This document shows positions 205-362 of a stretch of DNA of 41,394 nucleotides, in pieces. The position numbers and the translations under genes were made by a program. A model generated the notes under the pieces. The model had not been told where the DNA came from. It ran no database searches and saw only the letters and a program-made list of their open reading frames with translations. Origin of the DNA: an uncultured Spirochaetaceae bacterium. GTDB lineage: Bacteria; Spirochaetota; Spirochaetia; Sphaerochaetales; Sphaerochaetaceae. The stretch covers positions 1-41,394 of the forward strand of contig CALXKS010000007.1 in assembly GCA_944389015.1 (NCBI GenBank), given 5' to 3'. Every line of letters starts with the position of its first letter. Within the stretch, counting starts at the first letter, position 1.

Positions 205-362
205 CGCAAGTAAGAGGAGTTGGCAACAATTAAAAGAGGAGCTGGGGAGAAGTTTCCATGAGGAAATCCGCAGAAGGGATACCGGAATGTCTCTGCTGAC
301 GGCCTTAAGCCCTTCTCCCCGCCTCCTGAATGACTTGGTTAGCTATGGCTAACTATTTTTTA
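205..362 (+). ncRNA. Probable small structured RNA with its own terminator (unknown family)
   Basis: The 95-418 stretch has no convincing open reading frame but is rich in secondary structure. A long closing helix pairs AGGAG-CT-GGGGAGAAG (237-252) with CTTCTCCCC-GC-CTCCT (312-327), with a 2x2 internal mismatch. Inside are three small hairpins: TTTCC-ATGA-GGAAA (253-266), GCAGA/TCTGC (270-274/292-296) and GGC-CTTAA-GCC (301-311). This gives a four-way-junction shape. A plus-strand intrinsic terminator follows at 338-362. No plus-strand gene lies upstream and the next gene is convergent, so the terminator most simply ends a small RNA. A weak promoter (ATGACA at 171, 17 bases, TATGCA at 194) would start near 205. 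I could not match it to SRP, 6S or a known riboswitch. The 5' end is approximate. Confidence 0.4.
338..362 (+). terminator. Rho-independent terminator of the putative small RNA
   Basis: GTTAGC-TATG-GCTAAC (338-353) is a six-pair hairpin followed by TATTTTTTT. The U-tract is only on the plus strand, so it does not serve the minus-strand regulator gene that ends at 419. Confidence 0.55.

Follow-up and report, generated by a model that had tools for sequence, protein, structure and literature searches.

A covarying four-way-junction RNA in the nifJ leader of uncultured spirochaetes, beside a candidate iron-responsive operator

Introduction

Structured cis-regulatory mRNA leaders of the kind collected in Rfam, whether riboswitch-like or protein-binding, occupy the 5′ leader, have a multi-helix fold that covaries and are linked to one gene. 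The element described here, which lies upstream of nifJ, the gene for the pyruvate-oxidising enzyme PFOR, shares these properties and by its likely role belongs among the structured mRNA leaders. It differs from the described examples in having no Rfam match, helix sequences that are free to vary, no conserved junction core and a second promoter that bypasses it. Literature searches found no account of this nifJ leader. In Anabaena the nifJ promoter served as the non-specific control for FurA, so that work lends no support to iron control of nifJ (PMC4005646).

Iron regulons of the DtxR, IdeR and DmdR1 type carry a GTTAG...CTAAC palindrome before iron-related genes, and a palindrome with these arms likewise stands before iron-related genes in the genomes considered here, which also encode DtxR-family proteins. 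The known actinobacterial DtxR/DmdR1 box has the GTTAG...CTAAC arms in common with it at a different spacing (PMC7174319). In sequence, the predicted operator is a 16-bp GTTAGC-N4-GCTAAC, whereas the known box is the 19-bp TTAGGTTAGSCTAACCTAA, a consensus that the palindrome does not fit because arms and spacing differ. The small RNAs RyhB, FsrA and IsaR1 resemble the nifJ element in having a likely iron-controlled promoter and, possibly, a short structured RNA product; the nifJ element, however, is always found in cis, and has no sequence relation to them in Rfam and no clear enrichment of targets. 6S RNA shares the long closing helix, but the nifJ element is branched and gene-linked and does not match RF00013.

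The locus and its promoters

The window, a 41,394-nt stretch of DNA from an uncultured Spirochaetaceae bacterium, contains at positions 2–94 of the minus strand the first 31 codons of nifJ, which is cut by the contig end and matches the N terminus of a relative's NifJ at 100%. The identification follows from the POR_N and PFOR_II domains in the NifJ of the relative L093. In this assembly nifJ is split between two contig ends, window 2–94 and G000:C9:24-251. The region upstream of it was located by DNA search in 24 of the 48 genomes of the genus, counting that of the window, and two loci (L101 and L115) were added from the nifJ upstream regions of other genomes, resulting in a working set of 26 loci.

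In all 26 loci nifJ lies directly downstream of the element and on the same strand. The upstream neighbour varies among species, being a GntR regulator or one of several other genes; two further neighbours, with labels that rest on reading their C-terminal peptides, appear to be glutamate-dehydrogenase-like and beta-barrel-like gene ends. Since the upstream neighbour changes while nifJ stays in place, a role in cis is favoured, and a constant same-strand position upstream of one gene is characteristic of cis-acting leaders. The first-pass annotation had proposed a plus-strand RNA here and pointed to the lack of a plus-strand gene nearby, which is true yet beside the point, the region being the leader of minus-strand nifJ.

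The distal promoter, P1, consists of a −35 element, TTGACA, at 380–385 and a −10 element, TAAAAA, at 357–362, both on the minus strand. The −35 element reads TTGAC in 26 of 26 homologous loci and is separated by 17 or 18 nt from the −10 element, which begins with TA throughout (TATAAA, TAGATT and similar in relatives) and always ends 3 nt before a palindrome, GTTAGCCATAGCTAAC, located at 338–353 of the minus strand. This palindrome has at most two changes in the 26 nifJ leaders and is a candidate DtxR-type operator overlapping the P1 start. It is followed immediately by a conserved segment, CAAGTCATTC (328–337, minus strand), found in nearly all 26 loci and in some with one inserted A. At nifJ the four central nucleotides of the palindrome (CATA) are conserved as well as CAAGTCATTC, which points to an additional constraint on the start of the P1 transcript.

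The same palindrome had been interpreted earlier as the hairpin of a plus-strand intrinsic terminator. Positions 336–355 with the adjoining T-run do fit such a pattern in the window, but the T-run is the complement of the window's unusual −10 region (TAAAAAAT) and is not kept in most relatives, and the hairpin is an almost invariant, promoter-linked palindrome at the 5′ end of the RNA.

A proximal promoter-like element, P2, lies between the element and nifJ (TTGCCA-17-TATCCT, 198–226, minus strand). It takes the form TTG(C/T)NN-17-TAT(C/T)CT or a near variant, the two boxes being 17 nt apart in each of the 24 loci examined, and a related proximal promoter precedes nifJ in most species of the genus without P1 and the junction. 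Comparison shows two tandem promoter-like elements at nifJ, P2 adjoining the gene and being the more widespread, and P1 being a distal addition in a subset of the genus. P1, the palindrome and the junction were either jointly present (26 loci) or, in the remaining nifJ upstream regions inspected, jointly absent, and from their sequences look like one added module. Nearer the gene, a small hairpin, UGUGGC-AUU-GCCACA (120–134, minus strand), precedes the nifJ ribosome-binding site; similar hairpins occur in loci with and without P1, including species without the junction.

A four-way junction with covarying helices

The 14-pair closing helix described in the first-pass annotation, 237–252 with 312–327, is present exactly as claimed, with 5 + 9 pairs around a 2 × 2 loop and three hairpins inside. 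Read along the minus strand, its 5′ arm (312–327), supported by per-sequence folds and covariation, is followed by a first hairpin (301–311), a second (266–300) capped by the loop UUCCGGUAU (279–287), a third (254–265) and the 3′ arm (237–252), supported by per-sequence folds; a short U-rich tract occupies 226–236. The UUCCGGUAU loop is conserved in most of the 26 loci and is altered or missing in L018, L021, L022 and L115.

On the minus strand, the four-way junction proposed at the outset has the lowest energy of all folds (205–362, shuffle z −2.5), whereas the most stable fold of the plus strand is a single long imperfect hairpin with internal loops (205–362, −55.3 kcal/mol, shuffle z −2.8; core 232–332, −43.8 kcal/mol, shuffle z −4.25). 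Folded individually, the minus-strand sequences of 18 of the 26 loci form the junction, 17 of them recovered by an automatic junction-fold search and L022 by an unconstrained fold. These share a closing helix of 12–16 pairs, three hairpins and linkers that are mostly zero. Folding favours a variant structure or one long hairpin over a clean four-way junction in L009–L011, L018, L025, L101 and L115.

When all 26 loci were aligned together with MAFFT, the two subgroups were misaligned, and RNAalifold then recovered nothing but the palindrome; in place of this approach, each sequence was folded separately and use was made of a covariance model, R1, built on 10 sequences of one subgroup, none from the subgroup of the window. 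R1 recovers the other subgroup, including the window's minus strand at 230–337, where the score of 39.7 bits (E = 1.3e-7 over 44 sources) is due in part to the common 5′ segment and loop. Among 25 aligned members, 23 of the 26 modelled pairs have changed on both sides, as have all 8 pairs examined in the second hairpin, and 89% of cells are paired, a level that none of 500 shuffles reached (72% paired after shuffling), with at most 65% in slid controls. The two short hairpins, with 94% (first) and 95% (third) of cells paired, set the junction apart from a plain hairpin. Covarying secondary structure of this kind is a mark of structured cis-acting leader RNAs, and the folded RNA is real and evolutionarily conserved.

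Helix positions that are mostly Watson–Crick contain 58 G-U against 16 A-C combinations in the model-based alignment, which was fitted to a minus-strand model, and 33 against 8 in the 15 sequences outside the model. This excess favours the minus strand. Folding stability hardly distinguishes one strand from the other (mean z −2.9 for the minus strand and −2.8 for the plus strand). Three features read from sequence, namely the conserved promoter, the linkage to nifJ and the excess of G-U over A-C, agree in pointing to the minus strand as the RNA strand.

No family matched the element at the Rfam 15 gathering threshold, and a relaxed threshold yielded only sub-threshold hits, which look like chance; the earlier failure to match a known family is thereby borne out. 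The covariation test then suggested for related genomes gave the double changes reported above. What survives of the independent structured RNA first proposed is a structure with strong covariation, and not an independent plus-strand small RNA with its own terminator. The competing possibility named at that stage, a minus-strand nifJ leader recognizable as an Rfam hit, proved the better reading as to the leader, although no Rfam family covers the element.

The palindrome and a predicted iron regulon

Across 48 genomes, the pattern GTTAGCN4GCTAAC occurs at 117 sites in total, compared with 6 for a reversed control. The sites inspected precede a DUF3793–flavodoxin operon, feoA, an AhpC-type peroxiredoxin gene and a PFL-like gene; the feoA at such a site is followed by a second feoA and feoB, and another site belongs to an ABC transporter adjoining a TetR gene. 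In 22 cases other than nifJ the palindrome stands 10–37 nt, mostly 10–17 nt, before a start codon. Occurrence in the promoters of iron genes is the behaviour of a DtxR/IdeR-type operator, and the gene set (feo, flavodoxin, peroxiredoxin and PFL) suggests an iron-responsive repressor. DtxR-family DNA-binding domains were matched in 47 of the 48 genomes, in 44 of them above the curated cut-off, and in L094 one DtxR-family gene lies beside the feo operator. The palindrome is therefore probably the operator of an iron-sensing repressor, for which a DtxR-type protein is the presumed candidate.

The DUF3793 (PF12672) flavodoxin operon has two copies of GTTAGC-N4-GCTAAC or near variants, approximately 80–110 nt apart, one of them directly before the ribosome-binding site (L079, L080, L081, L086, L089, L095 and L096).

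Proposed role and alternative explanations

The element is best read, with a probability of roughly 0.7, as a structured, iron-linked 5′ leader of minus-strand nifJ that is made from P1 and whose junction acts in cis. Sequence comparison shows the order of the minus-strand parts, namely P1, an operator-like palindrome, a covarying junction, P2 and nifJ. Transcription from P1 would start at the palindrome, and the RNA would adopt a four-way junction whose helices are joined by almost no linker nucleotides. A DtxR-family iron-sensing repressor may bind the palindrome, so that at low iron P1 would be switched on together with flavodoxin and Feo, and the junction would act in cis on the longer nifJ transcript. 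Its function may be that of a stabiliser, an attenuator or a small RNA released upstream of P2; most likely it is a compact 5′ structure that either stabilises the transcript or causes its attenuation ahead of P2, and a protein may dock at the conserved UUCCGGUAU loop.

Flavodoxin can stand in for ferredoxin as the electron acceptor of PFOR when iron is scarce, and shared regulation of nifJ and flavodoxin would be in keeping with this. More PFOR transcript during iron shortage is not obviously useful, because PFOR is an Fe–S enzyme. A more far-reaching and doubtful possibility is that the element represents a new class of four-way-junction RNA induced by iron starvation, either as a trans-acting small RNA ending before P2 or as a control on nifJ that switches pyruvate oxidation to flavodoxin.

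A minus-strand small RNA of about 105–125 nt, transcribed from an iron-controlled P1, ending at the U-rich tract and acting in trans like RyhB, FsrA or IsaR1, is quite unlikely. The element would supply such an RNA with its own promoter, a compact fold, a highly conserved 5′ segment as a possible seed and an operator that suggests induction at low iron, and most members have 4–6 U within 8 nt past the closing helix, a tract that leaves room for partial termination. This tract is short, however, and no Rfam small RNA matches. The element was found only at nifJ across 139 family genomes, whereas independence from one gene is typical of such RNAs, though not strictly required, and exact 11-mer complements of the conserved 5′ segment (exact matches only were counted) are about as rare outside nifJ as those of a control. 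A metabolite riboswitch in the nifJ leader, to which the leader position, the multi-helix junction and the conserved loop would be suited, is less probable again: almost no junction nucleotides are unpaired, with zero linkers in most members, the loop is altered or missing in a few, P2 bypasses the element and no Rfam riboswitch matches. The plus-strand small RNA with an intrinsic terminator, as first proposed, is very improbable indeed. The window contains the terminator pattern and its plus strand folds well too, but most relatives have no T-run, the site is occupied by a conserved minus-strand promoter, inspection by eye found no conserved plus-strand promoter, and the wobble asymmetry favours the other strand.

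A separate question concerns the palindrome only, which might act as an RNA hairpin, a 5′ stabiliser or ribosome-site element, and not as a DNA operator. The short distance to the start codon in the 22 cases away from nifJ described above is compatible with this view, which is nonetheless unlikely. The additional upstream copy in flavodoxin operons lies beside a −10-like element (L079) and need not be transcribed; a start approximately 7 nt after the −10 element would leave the P1 RNA without part of the 5′ arm; and the six-base arms hardly vary, whereas an RNA stem could covary freely.

As a nifJ leader, the element adds an undescribed and strongly covarying RNA to a little-studied group among the spirochaetes of animal guts, and the shared palindrome ties it to a predicted iron regulon of feo, flavodoxin, peroxiredoxin and PFL genes. 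Should the junction prove to control nifJ, it would offer a means, acting on RNA, of matching central pyruvate metabolism to the supply of iron.

Distribution and neighbouring features

In a pattern scan of genome contigs, the host organisms were uncultured Spirochaetaceae and Spirochaetales, including Candidatus Ornithospirochaeta, and the element is known from one subset of this single genus. Searches with the covariance model at the family and order levels covered the same 139 genomes and gave matches in this genus only, one per genome and at nifJ sites; no copy away from nifJ was found in these 139 family genomes. The model also gave a weak match to the minus strand of the window at 12215–12296 (14.8 bits, E = 0.33), most likely by chance. 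No tRNA or tmRNA was found in the window.

Upstream of P1, the minus strand at 419–6089 encodes two GntR/FCD regulators, a split transketolase, the beta-keto acid cleavage enzyme BKACE and a four-carbon acid sugar kinase-like protein, probably forming a catabolic operon. Members of the genus without P1 and the junction often have another palindrome upstream of nifJ, GAAACAGAGTTTC, GGAACATTGTTCC and similar (L099, L100, L102, L103, L106, L107, L109–L113 and L116), which in several genomes follows the apparent end of a TetR-type gene.
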